Part shown: positions 3,770-28,670 of the stretch, piece by piece | How positions within the stretch are numbered: position 1 is the stretch's first letter | Layout: each line of letters starts with the position of its first letter | NCBI RefSeq assembly: GCF_000833025.1 | Contig: NZ_CP010817.1 | Span: 2,480,001 to 2,544,000 of the forward strand | Direction: 5' to 3' | Length of the DNA: 64,000 bases | Source of the DNA: Myroides profundi | GTDB taxonomy: Bacteria; Bacteroidota; Bacteroidia; Flavobacteriales; Flavobacteriaceae | The notes under the pieces: model-generated | The model's database searches: none | What the model saw: the letters and a program-made list of their open reading frames with translations, nothing else | What the model was told of the DNA's origin: nothing | Program-made: the position numbers and the translations under genes

Positions 3770-4386
3770 TCATTATGTTATTTTGTTGTTTTGTGATTTC
3801 GTTTATATCACAAAACATTATCTTATCTCTATATTTCTTTTCTATTAGACGCAATATATTGCGTCTCTACTGTATTCCTTTTATTAGACGTAAGATATTA
3901 CGTCTCTACCTTATGTGATGGATTTGCCCCGCTACGCAAAGTCTCCCGACTTTGAGTGATTCTCACACAGTTTAAATCGTTACGCTGATGGTGCGGATTT
4001 TTAATCCGTGACGTGTATTTTCCTGACTTCCCTATTTCCTATTTTCCGTTTCCTATTCCCTGTGACACGCATAATAATGCGTCTCTACTGATTCTGGGAT
4101 GGTTTGTAAACTGTGCCATGCATGTGCTGTAATTCATTAACTCTGACACGCAAAATATTGCGTTTCTGCTGTATTCCTTTTATTAGACGTAAGATATTAC
4201 GTCTCTACTAATGCTGGTGTGTTTTGTAACCTATGCCATATTCTGTAAAACATTAACTCTGACACGCAAAATATTGCGTCTCTACCTTGTATATAGGGCA
4301 TGTATACCGAATGGCATCCCCCTAGTCGTTGACGCGGATTTGATGTTATTATCCTCATGCACGGTGACACGCAAAAAATTGCGTCT
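3770..4386. repeat. Cluster of palindromic intergenic repeats between wecB and wecC
   Basis: At least seven copies of a GACGCAA(n)TTGCGTCTCTAC-type element lie here. Examples are a perfect 20-bp palindrome at 3847-3866, and copies starting near 3886, 4063, 4145, 4185, 4261 and 4366. Two further families are mixed in: a CTACGCAAAGTCTCCCGACTTTG element near 3931-3954 and a GCGGATT...AATCCG inverted repeat near 3972-3988. Open frames in this stretch are products of the repeats. The last copy runs into wecB and supplies its TAG stop codon (4387-4389). Confidence 0.85.
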
Positions 4387-5508
4387 CTACTGTAATTGAC
4401 TGATAAAATCAACAATACGTGCACATGCTTTTCCATCTCCGTAAGGATTGTGTAAGGCTGACATCTTTGCATAACGAGCTGTATCTGTCAATAGGCTATT
4501 CGCCTCTCTTACAATCTTCTCTTTATCCGTACCTACTAGGATTACTGTTCCTGCTGCTACGGCTTCAGGACGTTCTGTTGTATCTCGCATGACTAAAACT
4601 GGTTTTCCTAAACTAGGTGCTTCTTCTTGTACTCCTCCACTATCTGTAACAATCATATAACTCTTATTCATCAACCATACAAATGAAGGGTAAGCTAATG
4701 GATCTATTAATTGAATATTTTCTATTCCTGATAGGATTTCGTAAACTGGACCTTTTACATTTGGATTTAAATGTACAGGGTAAATGATTTGTACATCAGC
4801 ATGTGTTAAGGCTATTTCTTTTAGTGCTTCACAGATACGAATAAATCCATCTCCATGATTCTCTCTTCTATGTCCTGTAACAAGTATTAATTTCTTAGAC
4901 GAATCTACAATCTGTTTTAATTGTGTAATTTCTTCATTTTCTAAATCTTCTACACGCTCTACACTTTCTAATAAAGCATCAATAACTGTATTACCAGTAA
5001 CTAAAATATCTTTGATTTTGATATTTTCTCTTAATAAATTTTCTTGAGATGCTATGGTTGGTGCGAAGTGATAATCTGTTACACGTCCTGTAATCTGACG
5101 ATTTATTTCCTCAGGGAAAGGTGCTCGTTTATTATGTGTTCTGAGTCCTGCCTCTACATGACACACTTCTGCTCCACTATAGAAAGCCGCAATACTCGCT
5201 GACATCGTTGTAGTAGTATCTCCATGAACATAAACGTAATCAGGTTTAAACTTCTCTAAAACAGGTTTTAATCCAGTGATAATATCTCCTGTTAAAGAAT
5301 ATAAATTTTGATTAGGTTTCATCAAATTCAAATCGTACTCTGGTACGATATCAAAAAACTCTAAAACTTGATCCAACATCTCTCTATGTTGTGCAGTTAC
5401 ACATACACGAGTATCAAATTTATCAGCGTGTTTTTGGAATTCCTTTACTAAAGGTGCCATTTTGATAGCTTCTGGTCTTGTGCCAAATACAATCAAATTC
5501 TTTTTCAT
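4387..5508 (-). CDS. wecB: UDP-N-acetylglucosamine 2-epimerase (WecB)
   Basis: This enzyme interconverts UDP-GlcNAc and UDP-ManNAc in the cytoplasm and feeds WecC. It shows the family start [13 protein letters not shown] (residues 8-20), [12 protein letters not shown] in the first domain, HVEAGLRTH with the acid and histidine of the active site, and the C-terminal UDP-binding segment [18 protein letters not shown] followed by RDTTERPEA. The length of 373 aa is standard. The stop codon lies inside a palindromic repeat, so the last residues may have been set by repeat insertion. Confidence 0.95.
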
Positions 5509-12032: not shown

Positions 12033-14084
12033 TTATGTTTTAGATTGTTTTACTTTAAAAATTACTTCTGTACCTAAGTTTATTTTAGAAAACACATGGA
12101 GTTCTGAGGCTAATGTTAATGCTCTTTCTTTCATATTCTGAATACCTATTCCTCCTCTAGGAACCTTCATATCAAAACCGATTCCATTATCCTTTATTCG
12201 AACAGTTATTCCTTCTTTATCCCCTACAAAGCTTATGGTACAAAGTGAAGCTTTTGAATATTTATTAACATTGTGAATAGCCTCTCTAATAATAAAATAA
12301 GTATGGACTTTCTCCATAGCGGTTAACTCTTCTAAATAGTCAGAATCACTACATTCTAAATTAAATATAGTATCCCATTTATTTTTTTGAAGTGATGCTA
12401 GATCTTCAATCAAACTTATAAATTTAGTTTCGCCAAACAATTCATTATTTATCAACGAGTGTGACAGTCCTCTGGTTGATTTCTCTAAATATTCTAATTC
12501 AGTAATCAAAGTATTCTTTAGACTTTCATTTTCTGTTTGTAACTGTTGAAGATTAAAACGAATTGTAAAAATATTATTAACTATTCCATCGTGAAGATCT
12601 TTAGCAATTCTATTTGTAACTGATTGCTTCACTTCAGTGGCGATTGTACTTTTCTCTAAGATCAATTGATAAATACTTTCATTCGCTTCTTTTTGTTCTG
12701 TTATGAAGTTTAATTCTCTATTTTTATTTCTCAGTCTATAAATAAATACTCCAGCAGAAAGTCCTAAAATAATAATTAGACTAGTCACTACAACCAACAA
12801 AACCGCATTTCTAAGTTCATTATTTTCGGTTACCACCTTCTCTGTTTCATACGCTATTCTAGCGAAACGATTACGAGTTGTATAATCTTGTTCTTCTAAA
12901 GCCTTATTAAGCTCAATAATTTGCTTTACTTGATTTTTGTTCTCGTATTCTTGATGTGATAGCAAAAACTCTAATGCTGTACGCTGAGCAACCTTAATGT
13001 CTCTATCCTTTGAAAGTTGATAAGATTTTTCTGCCCATTCAAAGGCTTTAACACTATCGCGAATAGCAATATACAATCCTGCTGCACTCATAGCCTGCTC
13101 ATTTGCAGCAAAATAATTACTAATTTCTAATGAGCGAGCGTAGGTATCCTCTATCTTGGTTATAAAACTTCTTTCTTTAGCTCCGATTTCCTTGTTGTGT
13201 GTTACCGCAAGCATCAAATCAGATTTAGCCATATTAGCCTCTAAAAAATCTAATATAATTGGAGTTGTTTCTGCCCACTTATAAACCAATCCTGCTGCTG
13301 CATAATCATATGCCTCCTTATAATCTTTTCTAAAATAAGCCAATTCAGAAAGATTATAATACAACATCATTAAAGCTTCTGACAGTTTACGACGATCTAG
13401 TATTTTATTCTTATTAAACTCCTTTTTCATCAAGGCCAATGCTGTAAGCAAATAACTCTTAGCCGATGCAAAATCTTGACGTTCAAGCAAACACAATGCC
13501 ATCATCTGATTCGCTTCAAAAGGTATTGGGTTAAGAGGATATCTCTCTAGAACACGCAAAGCATTAGCTACCTTAACCTCGCTTTCCATAACCAATCCTT
13601 TTTCGAATAGCAATCGAGCCTGATAGAACTCCATTTCACCTATTTTCATCGAATCACCTAATTCTTTATAGACATTCTCTGCTTTGATATAATAGTAATA
13701 AGTACTATCCATAATACCTAAGTCGTGATAGTACATTCCAATGTCATTATAGATATTAGCAAGCATATACTCATCCGATTTGGCTTCTGCAAAACGAATA
13801 GCCTTTCTAGTCAGTTTTAAAAATGAAATAGAATCACGCGTCCATCTAAGCTCACTTAACACACTATCTATGATAATTCTATTATCAGCAGTATTCTTTA
13901 AGCTAAGTGCCCTATCTACTGCTGGTTTAAGCACCTGTGCTAAGCTATCTTTATAATCGTTGTCATACCATACTGCATATAGTTGATCATAATCAGTCTT
14001 ACTCACAATTTTAGACCGATTACAATTCACTAATAACAATGCAAATACAACAAATAGAAAATTAATTTGGCGAAGTTTTTTCAT
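12033..14084 (-). CDS. TPR-containing sensor histidine kinase, NarX/LiaS-like
   Basis: The N-terminus has a lipoprotein-type signal (LLLVNC, cysteine near residue 21). Helical TPR-like repeats follow (about 60-400), then a membrane segment near residues 430-452. The HisKA_3-type phosphoacceptor is in RIAKDLHDGI (histidine 498), and the ATPase domain shows EAIHNVNKYSK (N box), DNGIGFD and GGIGIQNM. This is the usual Bacteroidota layout in which a periplasmic TPR region senses the signal. No response regulator lies beside it, so it is an orphan here. The promoter carries a 10-bp inverted repeat that may be its operator. Confidence 0.9.
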   Translation of the reverse strand: MKKLRQINFLFVVFALLLVNCNRSKIVSKTDYDQLYAVWYDNDYKDSLAQVLKPAVDRALSLKNTADNRIIIDSVLSELRWTRDSISFLKLTRKAIRFAEAKSDEYMLANIYNDIGMYYHDLGIMDSTYYYYIKAENVYKELGDSMKIGEMEFYQARLLFEKGLVMESEVKVANALRVLERYPLNPIPFEANQMMALCLLERQDFASAKSYLLTALALMKKEFNKNKILDRRKLSEALMMLYYNLSELAYFRKDYKEAYDYAAAGLVYKWAETTPIILDFLEANMAKSDLMLAVTHNKEIGAKERSFITKIEDTYARSLEISNYFAANEQAMSAAGLYIAIRDSVKAFEWAEKSYQLSKDRDIKVAQRTALEFLLSHQEYENKNQVKQIIELNKALEEQDYTTRNRFARIAYETEKVVTENNELRNAVLLVVVTSLIIILGLSAGVFIYRLRNKNRELNFITEQKEANESIYQLILEKSTIATEVKQSVTNRIAKDLHDGIVNNIFTIRFNLQQLQTENESLKNTLITELEYLEKSTRGLSHSLINNELFGETKFISLIEDLASLQKNKWDTIFNLECSDSDYLEELTAMEKVHTYFIIREAIHNVNKYSKASLCTISFVGDKEGITVRIKDNGIGFDMKVPRGGIGIQNMKERALTLASELHVFSKINLGTEVIFKVKQSKT

Positions 14085-14106
14085 ATCAGTTTGTATAAAT
14101 ACATCA

Positions 14107-14147
14107 CAAATGTAAACAATGAAATTTGAAATTTTACCATTGTTTAC
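14107..14147 (-). promoter_or_regulatory. Promoter with overlapping inverted repeat upstream of the sensor kinase
   Basis: On the minus strand TACATTTG (14107-14114) matches TAnnTTTG. It overlaps one arm of a perfect 10-bp inverted repeat GTAAACAATG / CATTGTTTAC (14112-14121 and 14138-14147; 16-nt spacer). A dimeric regulator binding both arms would cover the promoter. The role as operator is inference. Confidence 0.5.
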
Positions 14148-14322
14148 GTAATGCGAACTTATTTTTTATAAAATTCACCAATTACAGACATCATATTATA
14201 ACACTAATTATTAGATAGTTGCGATCTAGCACAATCCAAGCCTACCTAACTGAGTAGGTTCTATTTTTAGAAAATGTGATAAACCTGAGGAAACAAGAAT
14301 ATTTACAATGAAGTATATATAT

Positions 14323-14392
14323 AAAAATACTCCCTAATCAGAATTGGAAGCCTGACTAGGGAGCGAGTCATCAAATAACAGATTTTGATAAC
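14323..14392 (-). ncRNA. Candidate small RNA, copy 1 of a tandem pair
   Basis: On the minus strand a promoter (TTG at 14426-14428, 20-nt spacer, TAATATTG at 14398-14405) precedes about 70 nt with two stem-loops. The first is ATCAAA/TTTGAT. The second is a 12-bp terminator hairpin (14331-14364) whose one non-Watson-Crick position is a G-U pair only when the minus strand is transcribed, followed by TATTTTTA. The 75 bp from terminator through -7 box match copy 2 at 74 positions, while the flanks differ. No open frame explains it. A match to a known Rfam family cannot be tested here. Confidence 0.6.
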
Positions 14393-14397
14393 GGTGC

Positions 14398-14428
14398 AAT
14401 ATTACTACCTTTTGAGTAAATATGCAAT
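14398..14428 (-). promoter_or_regulatory. Promoter of small-RNA copy 1
   Basis: TTG, 20 nt, TAATATTG on the minus strand differs from the Bacteroidota consensus by one base in the -7 box. The same -7 box and its surroundings are kept in copy 2. Confidence 0.5.
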
Positions 14429-14543
14429 ATTTTTAATACTATTTTTTATAAAAATTGATATAAAACAGCTAATAAACCAATAGAAAACTCATTAACAGAC
14501 ACTTATATTATAATTTGCAAAAATCAAGATAGGGTATATACCA

Positions 14544-14613
14544 AAAAAATGCTCCCTAATCAGAATTGGAAGCCTGACTAGGGAGCGAGTCATCAAATAA
14601 CAGATTTTGATAA
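14544..14613 (-). ncRNA. Candidate small RNA, copy 2 of a tandem pair
   Basis: This unit lies exactly 221 bp from copy 1. It keeps the -7 box (14619-14626), the ATCAAA/TTTGAT stem and the 12-bp terminator hairpin (14552-14585), followed by CATTTTTTT. The terminator loop GCUUCCAAUU is identical in both copies and could pair with GGAAG-containing targets (speculation). The spacer between the units (about 14429-14540) is not conserved, which argues that the unit itself is under selection or recently copied. Confidence 0.6.
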
Positions 14614-14618
14614 CAGTG

Positions 14619-14647
14619 CAATATTACTACTTTTCCAGTAAATACAA
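14619..14647 (-). promoter_or_regulatory. Promoter of small-RNA copy 2
   Basis: TAATATTG at 14619-14626 has a TTG 18 nt upstream (14645-14647) and another 22 nt upstream (14649-14651). The arrangement matches copy 1 apart from small spacer changes. Confidence 0.45.
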
Positions 14648-14720
14648 GCAATTAAGCGCATTTTTTTTTCAAAAAAACATCACTTATATAAAACACTTAT
14701 AACGAATGTTTTAAAAACAA

Positions 14721-14754
14721 AAAAGAGCTTTAACCCAAAGACTAAAGCTCTTTT
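14721..14754 (-). terminator. Terminator of the 14816-15700 gene
   Basis: The 12-bp stem AAAAGAGCTTTA / TAAAGCTCTTTT (14721-14732 with 14743-14754) is followed on the minus strand by a T-run. It lies about 60 nt after the stop codon and separates that gene from the small-RNA pair. Confidence 0.8.
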
Positions 14755-14815
14755 TTATGTAACAGGATTCCCTTTTCACTATTTATTTAGGCTTAAAACA
14801 TCAAACACATGCTTA

Positions 14816-15700
14816 TTATGATGTAAACCCTAACTGTATTAAGCTATCTTGTTGGACTAATTCTCCACTACTCTTATACACACTAGTAGTATCTGTAGCC
14901 TTGTCTAATACTTCATAGAAGTCAAGTTTACCTTCTTTGTAAAAATAAAAGTATTCATCCTCTTCTCCGATACAAGTCTTATCTGTCAATACACCATCTT
15001 GATAAGTTAAAGAACATCTATACCCTTTATCTATAAAGAACTCTTCTGTTAACACCCCTTTATTATTAAAAAACTGTGTACGCTCATTTAAGATGTCTTT
15101 TATCTTCTGTATATTTCCATTTCGATAATAAACTTTATGAGATTGATTAATATTGTCCTCTATACTCTCTAAAGATTCATCATCATAATAACTATAAAAA
15201 ACAGTGTTATAATCTAATTCTAAATCAAAATGGATGACTTGTTTACTCACTAATTTACCTAACTCAAATCCTTCTACAGTAAAGATTCTATCTTCTAAAG
15301 AAAATCTAGAGGTAACTACATCTTCTTCTTTTACAGAACCTTCGACAGCTACACCTTTTACAAAAGTTAAATCGAAAACACTTCCATTTGCCTTACTTTT
15401 AAGTTCACATTCTCCATCTAGCAAACCAAATTCTCCTACACAGAACTCTCCATGAAAAAAACTATTATCAATAATATACCCTCCTTTATCTAAAACTATT
15501 TGTTCTGTTTGGATTGCTTTTTCGTAATAGTCACAAAGTTCCTGTTGAGTATAGTTTTTACACTCTTCTGAATGAAGTCTTTGGTAGAGATCATAGTTAA
15601 TTAAACGTTGAACTATAATTTCTGCCCCACAGTACACTTCATCTATATCGAAGAAGTATGACTGATCTAAAGTTATATATTTTTGTAAATTTTTATTCAT
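14816..15700 (-). CDS. Unknown protein with MORN-like C-terminal half
   Basis: I do not recognise the family. The 294-aa protein lacks a signal peptide. Its N-terminal part has helical stretches (YTQQELCDYYEKAIQTE). The C-terminal half shows short beta-type units typical of antitoxin-like MORN-variant proteins (YYRNGNIQKIKDI, FNNKGVLTEEFF, YFYKEGKLDFYE, YKSSGELVQ). It forms a single transcription unit with its own terminator. The composition is acidic and rich in Tyr and Phe. Function unknown. Confidence 0.75.
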   Translation of the reverse strand: MNKNLQKYITLDQSYFFDIDEVYCGAEIIVQRLINYDLYQRLHSEECKNYTQQELCDYYEKAIQTEQIVLDKGGYIIDNSFFHGEFCVGEFGLLDGECELKSKANGSVFDLTFVKGVAVEGSVKEEDVVTSRFSLEDRIFTVEGFELGKLVSKQVIHFDLELDYNTVFYSYYDDESLESIEDNINQSHKVYYRNGNIQKIKDILNERTQFFNNKGVLTEEFFIDKGYRCSLTYQDGVLTDKTCIGEEDEYFYFYKEGKLDFYEVLDKATDTTSVYKSSGELVQQDSLIQLGFTS

Positions 15701-22946: not shown

Positions 22947-24578
22947 TTAATTATCGTTTCTTACAGCGAATACAATATTCATAAATGTACCTACTGTTAC
23001 GTCTGCACCTGGTTGTAATTCGTAGTTTAATATTCCACTATCACTTACTGTTACAACTTTAAATACTGAAGTATCATACCATGTTATATGGTAATCTAAC
23101 TCAGACGCTGGCAATACTGGTAAAGTTGTATTCTTACCTGTATTAGACGTTTTTGGAGTTCCAAACTGCATCGTATAACGTCCATATAAATCAATCTTAC
23201 CAAGTAAAGTAGTATCACTAAAAGTATCACTTGCTAAATGACCTGATCCAGGAGCATTTAATTGCTCTTGACTCGTAGGAATAACAATAGAAGGCATATA
23301 GAAGAACTTCGGCATGGCTGCTTTTAATCCTTTAATAATATCTCCATTATTATCAACAGCCATTAGATGTTGAGTTTGTTCATTCTGAACATTTTTCTTA
23401 TCTAATCCTTTTAATGCTAAAGTATTTGCGCTTGTTGTTACAATCTCAGTAGCCTTTAATAGAGTACCTCCTAACTGTACATTACTTCCTGTTTTAGTCA
23501 ATCCATTATCTGCAGTTACACCTAAAGTAGATTTATCCTCCCATTTTGGTTTTCCAGTAGCATCAGTTACTAATACCTGATTATTTCCACCATTTGCCAT
23601 ATCTATTGGTTGGATTGTACCATCTTTAATTTTACCAGATGTAATAGACTCGTCTTTTACTCTAAGACTTGTTTCTACTAATACAGCTCTAGTACCACCT
23701 TCTGTCACTTCTATTGTTGGTTCTGAATCAGCAGCTTTAAGATTTTTAGCATTTAATACATTCGTTACATCTATACTAGGGGTTCCTGCTACCCATTCTG
23801 TTCCATTATACACTAACGCTTGACCATTAGTAGTTGGAGCATCCTGATTCACAGATTTTCCTTTTAACGATGTCAGTTTATTAGTATTTGCTGGTCCTGT
23901 TACATCCCCTACTAAGATTAGTTTAGATTCATCTGCATTTACTACATATGGGCTACCTTCTGTACCTGCTCCAGTAATTGTAATAGCGTGACCTTGTATA
24001 GTTTTTCCACCGATACCGTCTTTTCCGTCTGCTCCATCTTCTCCTTTAGGTCCCAAGATATTTGTCCATGTATTTGTTGTTGGATCATAAACCCACACTC
24101 CTGAATCATTGTGTACAATAGTTACGCCTTCGCCTGGCCCTCCTGCTTCACCTGGTTTACCTGGTTCTCCTGTCTGACCTGGTTGTGACTCTGACTTGAA
24201 GCCTGTATCTCCTTTGTCTCCTTTAGGCCCTAAGATATTTGTCCATGTATTTGTTGTTGGATCATAAACCCACACTCCTGAATCATTGTGTACAATAGTT
24301 ACGCCTTCACCTGGTCCTCCTGCTTCACCTGGTTTCCCTGGTTCTCCTGTCTGACCTGGTTGTGACTCTGACTTGAAGCCTGTATCTCCTTTGTCTCCTT
24401 TAGGCCCTAAGATATTTGTCCATGTATTTGTTGTTGAATCATAAACCCACACTCCTGAATCATTGTGTACAATAGTTACTCCTTCACCTGGTCCTCCTGC
24501 TTCACCTGGTTTCCCTGGTTCTCCTGTCTGACCTGGTTTTGACTCTGACTTGAAGCCTGCCCTAAAATATTTGTCCAT
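22947..24578 (-). pseudogene. C-terminal part of the broken collagen-like surface protein
   Basis: This frame holds three collagen-like modules of about 59 residues (GFKSESQPGQTGEPGKPGEA, then a VTIVHNDSGVWVYDPTTNTW unit, then GPKGDKGDT), followed by a non-repetitive C-terminal region of about 370 residues ending VGTFMNIVFAVRNDN. The ATG at 24578 is an accident of a shifted frame (the bases normally encode NTWTNILG), so this is the 3' part of the gene that begins at 28670. It shows no sorting domain. As assembled it has no credible start. It may be intact in the living cell if the repeats were misassembled. Confidence 0.7.
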
Positions 24579-25015
24579 GTATTTGTTGTTGGGTCATAAA
24601 CCCATACTCCTGAATCATTGTGTACAATAGTTACGCCTTCGCCTGGGCCGCCAGCTTCACCTGGTTTACCTGGTTCGCCTGTCTTACCTGGTTGTGACTC
24701 GGACTTGAAGCCTGCCCTAAAATATTTGTCCATGTATTTGTTGTTGGGTCATAAACCCATACTCCTGAATCATTGTGTACAATAGTTACGCCTTCGCCTG
24801 GGCCGCCAGCTTCACCTGGTTTACCTGGTTCGCCTGTCTTACCTGGTTGTGACTCGGACTTGAAGCCTGCCCTAAGATATTTGTCCATGTATTTGTTGTT
24901 GGGTCATAAACCCATACTCCTGAATCATTGTGTACAATAGTTACGCCTTCGCCTGGGCCGCCAGCTTCACCTGGTTTACCTGGTTCGCCTGTCTTACCTG
25001 GTTGTGACTCGGACT
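24551..25015 (-). repeat. Three tandem 155-bp repeats inside the collagen-like gene
   Basis: The phrase TGAAGCCTGCCCTAA recurs at 24551, 24706 and 24861, exactly 155 bp apart. Since 155 is not a multiple of three, each unit shifts the frame. Each unit equals one collagen-like module that has lost the bases coding for the PKGDKGDT segment at its junction. Confidence 0.85.
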
Positions 25016-25380
25016 TGAAGCCCTCCTGCTTCACCTGGTTTACCTGGTTCTCCTGTCTGACCTGGCTGTGACTCTGACTTGAAGCCTGTATCTCCTTTGT
25101 CTCCTTTGTCTCCTTTTTCTCCTTTAGGACCTAAGATATTTGTCCACGTATTTGTTGTTGGATCATAAACCCATACTCCCGAATCATTGTGTACAATAGT
25201 TACGCCTTCGCCTGGTCCTCCTGCTTCACCTGGTTTCCCTGGTTCTCCTGTCTTACCTGGCTGTGACTCTGACTTGAAGCCTGTATCTCCTTTGTCTCCT
25301 TTAGGTCCTAAAATATTTGTCCACGTATTTGTTGTTGGATCATAAACCCATACTCCTGAATCATTGTGTACAATAGTCAC
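24994..25380 (-). pseudogene. Internal fragment of the collagen-like gene
   Basis: A frame of about 128 codons reads two VTIVHNDSG modules joined by GPKGDKGDTGFKSES and GPKGEKGDKGDKGDT. It ends in an out-of-frame junction (GEAGGLQVRVTTR, stop) near 25020, where one module is spliced into another. Its start is a GTG overlapping the previous stop. It is part of the gene running from 28670 to 22947, not a separate gene. Confidence 0.65.
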
Positions 25381-26830
25381 TCCTTCGCCTGGGCCGCCAG
25401 CTCTTTAGGTCCTAAAATATTTGTCCACGTATTTGCTGGTCCTGTTACATCCCCTACTAAGATTAGTTTAGATTCATCTGCATTTACTACATATGGGCTT
25501 CCTTCTGTACCTGCTCCAGTAATTGTAATAGCGTGACCTTGTATAGTTTTTCCACCGATACCGTCTTTTCCGTCTGCTCCATCTTCTCCTTTAGGTCCCA
25601 AGATATTTGTCCATGTATTTGTTGGTGGATCATAAACCCACACTCCTGAATCATTGTGTACAATAGTCACTCCTTCGCCTGGGCCGCCAGCTCTTTAGGT
25701 CCTAAAATATTTGTCCACGTATTTGCTGGTCCTGTTACATCCCCTACTAAGATTAGTTTAGATTCATCTGCATTTACTACATATGGGCTTCCTTCTGTAC
25801 CTGCTCCAGTAATTGTAATAGCGTGACCTTGTATAGTTTTTCCACCGATACCGTCTTTTCCGTCTGCTCCATCTTCTCCTTTAGGTCCCAAGATATTTGT
25901 CCATGTATTTGTTGGTGGATCATAAACCCACACTCCTGAATCATTGTGTACAATAGTCACTCCTTCGCCTGGGCCGCCAGCTCTTTAGGTCCTAAAATAT
26001 TTGTCCACGTATTTGCTGGTCCTGTTACATCCCCTACTAAGATTAGTTTAGATTCATCTGCATTTACTACATATGGGCTTCCTTCTGTACCTGCTCCAGT
26101 AATTGTAATAGCGTGACCTTGTATAGTTTTTCCACCGATACCGTCTTTTCCGTCTGCTCCATCTTCTCCTTTAGGTCCCAAGATATTTGTCCATGTATTT
26201 GTTGGTGGATCATAAACCCACACTCCTGAATCATTGTGTACAATAGTCACTCCTTCGCCTGGGCCGCCAGCTCTTTAGGTCCTAAAATATTTGTCCACGT
26301 ATTTGCTGGTCCTGTTACATCCCCTACTAAGATTAGTTTAGATTCATCTGCATTTACTACATATGGGCTTCCTTCTGTACCTGCTCCAGTAATTGTAATA
26401 GCGTGACCTTGTATAGTTTTTCCACCGATACCGTCTTTTCCGTCTGCTCCATCTTCTCCTTTAGGTCCCAAGATATTTGTCCATGTATTTGTTGGTGGAT
26501 CATAAACCCACACTCCTGAATCATTGTGTACAATAGTCACTCCTTCGCCTGGGCCGCCAGCTCTTTAGGTCCTAAAATATTTGTCCACGTATTTGCTGGT
26601 CCTGTTACATCCCCTACTAAGATTAGTTTAGATTCATCTGCATTTACTACATATGGGCTTCCTTCTGTACCTGCTCCAGTAATTGTAATAGCGTGACCTT
26701 GTATAGTTTTTCCACCGATACCGTCTTTTCCGTCTGCTCCATCTTCTCCTTTAGGTCCCAAGATATTTGTCCATGTATTTGTTGGTGGATCATAAACCCA
26801 CACTCCTGAATCATTGTGTACAATAGTCAC
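25381..26830 (-). repeat. Five exact tandem 290-bp repeats inside the collagen-like gene
   Basis: The phrase TCCTTCGCCTGGGCCGCCAG recurs at 25381, 25671, 25961, 26251, 26541 and 26831. Units appear identical. Each encodes VTIVHNDSGVWVYDPPTNTW, then part of the normally unique C-terminal region (GKTIQGHAITITGAGTEGSP, LILVGDVTGPANT), then jumps back at GCAAATAC into TWTNILGPK. It ends in a stop (ELAAQAKE) that overlaps the next GTG as GTGA. 290 is not a multiple of three. A sixth, shorter unit of 105 bp follows (26831-26935). Confidence 0.85.
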
Positions 26831-26930
26831 TCCTTCGCCTGGGCCGCCAGCTCTTTAGGTCCTAAAATATTTGTCCAAGTATTTGTTGTTGGATCATAAA
26901 CCCATACTCCTGAATCATTGTGTACAATAG

Positions 26931-28670
26931 TCACTCCTTCGCCTGGGCCGCCAGCTCTTTAGGTCCTAAAATATTTGTCCACGTATTTGTTGTTGGATCA
27001 TAAACCCATACTCCTGAATCATTGTGTACAATAGTTACTCCTTCGCCTGGTCCTCCAGCTTCACCTGGTTTACCTGGTTCTCCTGTCTTACCTGGTTGTG
27101 ACTCGGACTTGAAGCCTGTATCTCCTTTGTCACCATCTTTCCCATCTGCTCCTTTAGGTCCTAAGATATTTGTCCAAGTATTGGTTGTTGGATCATAAAC
27201 CCATACTCCTGAATCATTGTGAACAATAGTCACTCCTTCACCTGGGCCGCCAGCTTCGCCTGGTTTACCTGGTTCGCCTGTCTTACCTGGTTGTGACTCG
27301 GACTTGAAGCCTGTATCTCCTTTTTCTCCTTTAGGACCTAAGATATTTGTCCACGTATTTGTTGTTGGGTCATATACCCATACTCCTGAATCATTGTGTA
27401 CAATAGTTACGCCTTCGCCTGGTCCTCCTGCTTCACCTGGTTTACCTGGTTCGCCTGTCTTACCTGGTTGTGACTCGGACTTGAAGCCTGTATCTCCTTT
27501 GTCACCTTTTTCTCCTTTAGGACCTAAGATATTTGTCCATGTATTTGTTGTTGGATCATAAACCCATACTCCCGAATCATTGTGTACAATAGTTACGCCT
27601 TCACCTGGTCCTCCTGCTTCACCTGGTTTCCCTGGTTCTCCTGTCTGACCTGGTTGTGACTCTGACTTGAAGCCTGTATCTCCTTTGTCTCCCTTGTCTC
27701 CTTTTATAGCTGCTATAAAAGCTTCTCCATCCTTTCCATCATTACCAGGTAAACTTTGCCAAATTTCTAAAGCAGACTTCCCATCAGCTCCTTTGTCTCC
27801 TTTAGGTCCCTTTGTTAAATCAATAGTAACAGCATCTCCTTTTTCATTTGTATATGTAAATGTTCCATTTCCATTATCTACCAATGTAGTAACCGTTTCA
27901 TTTCCTTTAACGATATCGTTAAACGTGATATTCTTTACTTCTCCTTCTTTTGTTACATAAGTAAATGAATTTCCATCATAATAAACATTCCCACCTACAT
28001 AACTGTTGTTAATTACTTCATACAGTTCTTTCTTAACTATTTCATTGTTAATAATCTCCTTGAAGTTTTTGATTACGCTCTTAGGAAGTTTAATTCTATA
28101 CCCTTTATTTAGAATAGGATTTCCTTTTCTGTCAATTGCATCCTCGTTATAGAAAATATAATCTCCAGAAGTTTCATCATACTCTATCTTAGTAACTTTC
28201 TCTTTTATTTCTACTTTTTCACCATTATCGCCTATGTAGTATAATTTATCACCTTCATAAACAACATTACCTTTAGTTGTATTAACGATATTAGTAATCT
28301 CTTCAACAATATTTTTATTATTGAAAATCTCTTGGTAATTATTAATTACAGCATCAGGAATATCTGCAACAGTAGTTAATCGATTCCATTTATCGATATA
28401 CCAATAATAATATCCTGGTTTCAAATCATTCTTAACAGTAGCAGTATTGTACACAAGCATGCTATTAATTCCATTTTTAGGAAATTCGCTAATTGTAACA
28501 ACATCTTTACTGTCTTTTAATGCAATACGTGGAATCAATAACCCCCTATTGGTTGATTCAATAGTTAACTCTGCCGATTTGTTTGGAGTTAAAGTTCCAA
28601 TCCCTACTTGTGCATTAGCAGCAAAACTACTTACTAATAAAGCAGCTACAGATAGTACTCTTTTTTTCAT
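26931..28670 (-). pseudogene. N-terminal part of the broken collagen-like surface protein
   Basis: A signal peptide (1-21, ending ANAQ) is followed by VGIGTLTPN and a segment typical of secreted flavobacterial repeat proteins (RGLLIPRIALKDS, MLVYNTATVKNDLKPGYYYW). A beta-rich region of about 200 residues follows, then GPKGDKGADGKS and four collagen-like modules with Gly-X-Y runs. It stops after GPKELAAQAKE at the first faulty repeat junction. A promoter-like box lies at 28792-28799. It heads the operon with the Ig-like, sorting-domain, PorP/SprF and OmpA genes. Read with 22947-24578 it is one very long gene; whether broken in life or only in the assembly is open. Confidence 0.75.

Follow-up and report, generated by a model that had tools for sequence, protein, structure and literature searches.

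Twin loci of Myroides profundi that very probably encode a two-hairpin small RNA, and their likeness to the rplK leader of Flavobacteriaceae

Twin sibling small RNAs (sRNAs), encoded by tandem near-identical copies with separate promoters and terminators, are known from OmrA/OmrB and PrrF1/PrrF2, and a like arrangement, with putative promoters, is seen at the locus described here. The Flavo-1 motif of Rfam is also a structured RNA of the Flavobacteriaceae, and the units of this study have no match to it. Rfp18 and other sRNAs of Flavobacterium psychrophilum are likewise flavobacterial, with a stem-loop predicted to pair with mRNAs; the accessible part of the report describes wide conservation of Rfp18 within its genus, predicted pairing via a third stem-loop and a need for this sRNA in precise protease expression (PMC9723704). 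At the level of leaders, the L1-binding rplK leaders of other phyla are likewise a control element before the same operon as the leader considered below, and the accessible part of that account describes them as stem-loops of irregular shape that contain an internal bulge and resemble the L1 site of 23S rRNA (PMC10931766).

Our analysis concerns a window of 64,000 nucleotides of the M. profundi genome (NZ_CP010817.1, positions 2,480,001 to 2,544,000), in which two direct repeats, 14323-14422 and 14545-14644, are identical at 95 of 100 positions and stand 222 bp apart from start to start. An initial annotation had described these as twin small-RNA genes matching at 74 of 75 core positions; the near-identity stands, and the count is corrected to 73 of 75 (14323-14397 versus 14545-14619). 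Repeat comparison, folding and a terminator scan agree that the twin minus-strand units are real; each combines a -7 box with a hairpin and, behind it, an intrinsic terminator. The parts of the units are as follows.

14323 to 14392, minus strand: sRNA copy 1, approximate predicted transcript, its start inferred to lie a few nucleotides past the -7 box
14367 to 14392, minus strand: copy 1, hairpin 1, with a covarying stem
14375 to 14381, minus strand: copy 1, loop element CUGUUAU, of which UGUUAU is kept in 20 of 20 copies and the preceding C in 17 of 20
14329 to 14364, minus strand: copy 1, terminator hairpin, then a T-run
14342 to 14351, minus strand: copy 1, loop element GCUUCCAAUU, its GCUUCC common to the rplK leader
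14545 to 14614, minus strand: sRNA copy 2, approximate predicted transcript
14589 to 14614, minus strand: copy 2, hairpin 1
14597 to 14603, minus strand: copy 2, loop element CUGUUAU
14551 to 14586, minus strand: copy 2, terminator hairpin, then a T-run
14564 to 14573, minus strand: copy 2, loop element GCUUCCAAUU

Folded as minus strand, the 75-nt units each form two clean hairpins, with energies of -30.2 and -32.1 kcal/mol and z-scores of -7.0 and -7.4; the plus-strand folds are weaker (-20.1 and -24.0 kcal/mol). In a consensus scan, 14586-14551 and 14364-14329 of the minus strand came out as terminator-like. The scan returned three sites within 14000-14900, where shuffled sequence averages 0.3, and the third has no relation to the units. 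As had been claimed, no coding explanation emerges, the units being free of any overlapping ORF of at least 50 aa from ATG, GTG or TTG among the window ORFs, and neither tRNA nor tmRNA was found in the window. The suggested comparison with Rfam, Flavo-1 included, gave no match in the window at gathering scores (Rfam 15). At E up to 10, 14100-14810 has 19 Rfam matches, all under gathering scores and Flavo-1 not among them; the same-sense match covering a unit is PyrG_leader on copy 2, at 20.6 bits versus a gathering score of 65. A third copy was not found in the M. profundi genome (a 4.06-Mb single contig), and since it has only two copies a mobile element is not suggested; we rejected that reading on this count and because relatives keep both the structure and the loops. 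The window has further repeats: five related copies at 3822-4388 have a palindromic core such as GACGCAATATATTGCGTC, the other four being 64-89% like the reference, and a long-repeat block at 23742-27820 has spacings of 177, 290 and 155 nt and copies up to 97% alike, which is probably, at a guess, a repetitive surface protein gene.

Genus, family and named-genome searches combined give a family of 20 copies, spread over 13 genomes of Myroides and its relatives. When 199 genomes of the genus were searched at the DNA level, five others matched strongly, and a covariance model built from ten copies, run against 398 genus genomes, found nine genomes with 15 copies at 75 bits or more, followed by a gap to 36 bits. 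Among 397 genomes sampled from the family, M. profundi itself was the sole match of the covariance search at E up to 1e-5. At E up to 0.01 there are matches in 17 genus genomes, eight of which have scores of 28-36 bits; most of these weak matches resemble ordinary terminators by eye and were rejected. Carriers among named genomes (11 of 14 pattern matches) include Myroides phaeus, M. marinus, M. odoratimimus, M. guanonis and Myroides sp. N17-2, further carriers being Flavobacterium sp. NKUCC04_CG, Flavobacterium sp. HSC-61S13 and three more Flavobacteriaceae assemblies; the remaining three of the 14 (L066, L069 and L071) have no covariance match at E up to 1 and were taken as chance. Tandem pairs occur in M. 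profundi (G000), G157, G296, G041 and M. odoratimimus, in G218 the two copies are separated by 520 kb, and the two of G192 lie on separate contigs.

The covariation analysis that the initial annotation had proposed found strong compensatory change in both stems across these copies. In the 20-copy alignment, which was fitted to the covariance model and is favoured by this, 95.7% of pair cells are standard and 9 of 21 pairs are changed on both sides, the covariation score being 0.403 versus 0.218 in shuffles, with none of 500 as high. Two further measures are weaker (13 of 500 shuffles reach the double-change pair count and 70 of 500 the pair-type count), and slid pairings of the same alignment are less than 50% paired. 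The first alignment, made without the model, is 90.0% paired and scores 0.381 versus 0.225, again with none of 500 shuffles as high. Invariant across the 20 copies are TAATATTGC, UGUUAU and AGGCUUCCAAUUCU, the C before UGUUAU being U in three.

For the claimed own promoters the sequence signals are mixed. The -7 box is invariant in 20 of 20 copies and a -33 TTG is present in both window copies, but only 10 of the 20 copies overall have a TTG 16-24 nt upstream of the box, versus 15% expected in shuffled flanks.

14397 to 14404, minus strand: copy 1, -7 box TAATATTG, the invariant element
14425 to 14427, minus strand: copy 1, candidate -33 TTG, spacing 20
14619 to 14626, minus strand: copy 2, -7 box TAATATTG
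14645 to 14647, minus strand: copy 2, candidate -33 TTG, spacing 18, with a second TTG at spacing 22

The F. psychrophilum promoter consensus is given as TAnnTTTG in the accessible part of its source (PMC9723704), and TAATATTG differs from it at one fixed position. Directly upstream of the -7 box, at 14405-14420 and 14627-14642 of the window and in close Myroides relatives, lies a TTTACTnnAAAAGTAG-like sequence, read as TTTACTCAAAAGGTAG in copy 1, which is possibly an operator.

The units sit between a kinase-like gene (14084-12033), with Pfam matches to HATPase_c, TPR_12 and HisKA_3 that are all under their cut-offs, and a 294-aa gene (15700-14816) with no Pfam match. Between copy 2 and the latter, at 14719-14756, is a 14-bp perfect inverted repeat with T-runs on both strands, a possible bidirectional terminator that is absent from the terminator scan listing. 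The element lies before the same kinase gene, and codirectional with it, in the window, in G157 and in one G192 copy, which would suit leader attenuators of the histidine-kinase gene or duplicated terminators. Other neighbours are nevertheless found in G018, G041, G072 and the second G192 copy, the next gene being opposite in G018 and G041; such mixed neighbours argue against a general role as leader to any single gene, every unit comes with a -7 box and terminator of its own, and we regard attenuation or terminator duplication as very improbable. The claim of stand-alone minus-strand sRNA genes is thus supported by the kept -7 box and terminator, the covarying stems, the invariant loops and the mixed neighbours in 13 genomes. 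Judged from sequence, the units are very probably real genes of a two-hairpin sRNA family, each of which would act as a stand-alone gene for a product of about 70 nt. A literature search for published Myroides sRNAs found no relevant report.

Searching eight genomes for the complement of the terminator loop, AATTGGAAGC, gave 96 sites, 14 of which are the sRNA genes, and the terminator-loop sequence itself occurs as a hairpin loop in the nusG-rplK gap of five of the eight. In Flavobacteriaceae the leader of the rplK-rplA (L11-L1) mRNA has the order UGUUAC, then a hairpin of variable stem with GCUUCC in its apical loop. In M. profundi, rplK lies at G000:C1:3580618-3581052, about 1.09 Mb from the units, which are not placed before it.

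G000:C1:3581042-3581108: rplK leader of M. profundi, with UGUUAC and a GCUUCC-loop hairpin

GCTTCC is present in the rplK leaders of 28 of 28 genomes, which were picked by handle, nine of them because they carry the sRNA; with three added, GCTTCC, when constrained to be unpaired, is enclosed as an apical loop by at least five pairs in all 31 leaders, against 17.1 expected with shuffled flanks. TGTTAY stands upstream of GCTTCC in 30 of the 31, the exception, L180, reading CGTTAC. The stems vary between genera, the enclosing helix is interrupted in a few leaders, and the leaders of G000, G157 and G296 retain GCTTCCA, not the full 10-nt loop. A pattern of the motif plus the rplK start codon is found in 343 of 395 Flavobacteriaceae genomes and 187 of 203 genera, its backward control giving none among the matches listed; the strict pattern is absent from 52 of the 395. 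In a sample of the phylum the leader elements occur in 29 of 296 genomes, namely 27 of 30 of the own family and two of 266 outside it (G793, and G1029, the latter looking like chance). Among 14 rplK loci read, both elements are present in L209, L210 and L212, while L213 shows GCTTCC alone. Rfam 15 reported only tRNA and no leader family on six rplK regions, and together with the count of 343 this marks the leader as a family-wide element without Rfam match in the six loci. Literature searches on Bacteroidetes rplK leaders, flavobacterial r-protein leader motifs and L1/rplK leaders returned nothing on the rplK element, as judged by titles and abstract openings. Elsewhere, at L139 in G072, a hairpin GCTTCC-GATAAAATT-GGAAGC stands upstream of a gene that resembles rpsF by eye.

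All 20 sRNA copies share the leader's order and its GCUUCC, with UGUUAU in place of UGUUAC. The pattern TGTTAN{8,38}GCTTCCA has 18 matches in G000: five antisense to 23S rRNA, two sRNA, one rplK leader, nine in or antisense to open frames and one other. We think the likeness of sRNA to leader is probably functional. Were it coincidental, the units would be ordinary mRNA-targeting sRNAs with loop seeds; conserved accessible loops are the usual seed design of sRNAs, and loop complements do exist inside coding regions. However, by a crude ORF test 74 of the 77 remaining AATTGGAAGC sites lie in or antisense to frames of at least 50 aa, no site within 60 nt of a start codon is common to different genomes among the eight, both elements match the leader in order, and a predicted further sRNA type was found. 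Ordinary mRNA targeting is in our judgement quite unlikely.

That further type follows from a simple expectation: if what counts is the loops and not the stems, there should be sRNAs built on different stems, and a pattern search (TGTTAY, gap, GCTTCCA, gap, T-run) was then run in 217 genomes. It returned the rplK leaders, the known copies and many other unsorted sites, and its backward control gave scattered matches too. In at least three genomes, G129, G024 and G033, it found a second sRNA type that the first covariance model had missed.

L299:1488-1554: second-type locus of G129
L306:1501-1567: second-type locus of G024
L315:1524-1592: second-type locus of G033

Each of these loci combines a TACATTTG -7 box with a first hairpin whose loop contains AUGUUAU or AUGUUAC and with a terminator hairpin whose apical loop CUUCCA is closed by G-C, their stems being unrelated to the Myroides type (fold z-scores -4.1, -3.2 and -4.8). 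The G033 copy carries UGUUAC, and its first hairpin differs from that of G129 and G024 and still pairs. The gene beside the second-type copies we take, by eye, to encode a pentapeptide-repeat protein. Sites in G102, G103 and G121 were set aside, GCTTCC there being part of the stem of a terminator that ends a gene and not of a loop.

Both elements have counterparts in ribosomal RNA. The 23S GTPase-associated centre of M. profundi reads GATGTTGGCTTGGAAGCAGCCATTCATTTAAAGAGTGCGTAACAGCTCAC; GCUUCCA is the complement of UGGAAGC (H43 loop) and UGUUAC that of GUAACA (H44 loop), so that the elements complement the two loops, exactly or nearly so, in antiparallel order. The loop boundaries, which we take from Escherichia coli numbering, are presumably 1066-1072 and 1093-1098; when the 52-nt centre is folded by itself, some of the presumed loop bases are paired. 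A1067 and A1095 belong to the L11-binding domain of H43/H44 according to the accessible part of a source in which the boundaries themselves are not confirmed (PMC4409310). The 23S loops are identical in 16 loci (10 of 14 genomes), the probe pattern itself having fixed part of both. The initial annotation had suggested that the terminator loop could pair with GGAAG targets, and this would fit one specific candidate, UUGGAAGC in 23S rRNA. Within the 2617 nt of 23S, TTGGAAGC and GTAACAG are each found at a single site, and both sites fall in the GTPase-associated centre. Joint complements, exact, in order and within 60 nt, were counted anywhere in 16S or 23S for 100000 shuffled pairs, in tests that were made after the match was seen and are not independent of each other: CTGTTA/GCTTCCAA was equalled by 180 of 100000, TGTTA/GCTTCCAA by 467, TGTTAC/GCTTCCA by 725 and, more weakly, the strict leader core TGTTAC/GCTTCC by 1820. 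Shuffles that reach this centre number 14 of 300000 for CTGTTA/GCTTCCAA, 27 of 300000 for TGTTAC/GCTTCCA and 88 of 300000 for TGTTAC/GCTTCC; with wobble allowed the result is weaker, 12 of 400 (sRNA) and 6 of 400 (leader) shuffled pairs matching the joint score.

Several observations count against the centre as target. Since all 20 Myroides-type copies have UGUUAU, not UGUUAC, their last pair with the H44 loop would be U-G, and CUGUUAU has its perfect complement, AUAACAG, at one other site of 23S, which we take to lie near the peptidyl transferase centre. Furthermore, the GTPase-associated centre is covered by L11 in finished ribosomes. The main rival is a protein: the shared elements would be the site of an RNA-binding protein (L11, L1, L10 or another) that represses rplK and is titrated by the sRNA, the 23S loop match being chance or a by-product. 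Protein recognition would likewise be consistent with loop elements that persist while their stems vary, and autoregulation of rplK-rplA by L1 via the leader is established in other bacteria, as the accessible part of PMC10931766 has it. According to the same partial source, however, L1 mRNA sites resemble the rRNA site, whereas here the relation to the L11 site is complementarity. In sense, GCUUCC is absent from the 16S and 23S sequence examined and UGUUAC occurs once, in another part of 23S, and a joint sense match of both elements is absent from the same sequence. We consider a protein ligand possible, if somewhat unlikely.

Our best explanation is graded in its parts. We give about even credence to the reading in which the two-hairpin sRNA of about 70 nt shares the ligand of the rplK leader and acts on it as competitor or decoy; its level would then tune L11/L1 synthesis, and two copies would raise the dose. 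The rarity of the Myroides type (9 of 398 genus genomes) counts against this explanation, which makes no prediction on the direction of the sRNA effect on rplK. That the common ligand is the 23S GTPase-associated centre, not yet covered by L11, we propose more tentatively, as the leading candidate. A further possibility, which we hold with similar reserve, is that the H43 loop UGGAAGC and the H44 loop GUAACA kiss GCUUCCA and UGUUAY, the leader thereby sensing unoccupied, L11-free 23S rRNA, and that the sRNA competes for 23S or binds the ribosomal centre itself. If this is true, cells would adjust their L11 synthesis to rRNA through contact between RNAs, and the sRNA would feed into ribosome assembly, in a phylum with few sRNAs that are understood. 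The idea is directly testable because the elements and their rRNA target are short and defined. Literature searches for sRNAs against the GTPase-associated centre, or for r-protein decoy sRNAs, returned nothing similar by titles and abstract openings.

Set beside known systems, the sRNA is most like the Flavobacteriaceae rplK leader, which it matches in the order of the two elements and very nearly in their sequence, the leader bearing GCUUCC apically on a variable stem. It differs from the leader in its own -7 box and terminator, in its location, in having UGUUAY also in a hairpin loop and in its end at the GCUUCC hairpin, which serves as the terminator as well; the Myroides type in addition has UGUUAU. 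OmrA/OmrB and PrrF1/PrrF2 are of a different lineage and are likened by arrangement, not sequence. The wide distribution reported for Rfp18 in its genus, in a comparison made by description only, differs from that of the Myroides type. Unlike L1-type leaders and rRNA mimicry, the Flavobacteriaceae elements lack a joint sense occurrence in 16S or 23S: known L1-type leaders resemble the rRNA site of their protein, while here a family-wide leader carries complements of the L11-site loops, and a free sRNA carries nearly the same loop pair.
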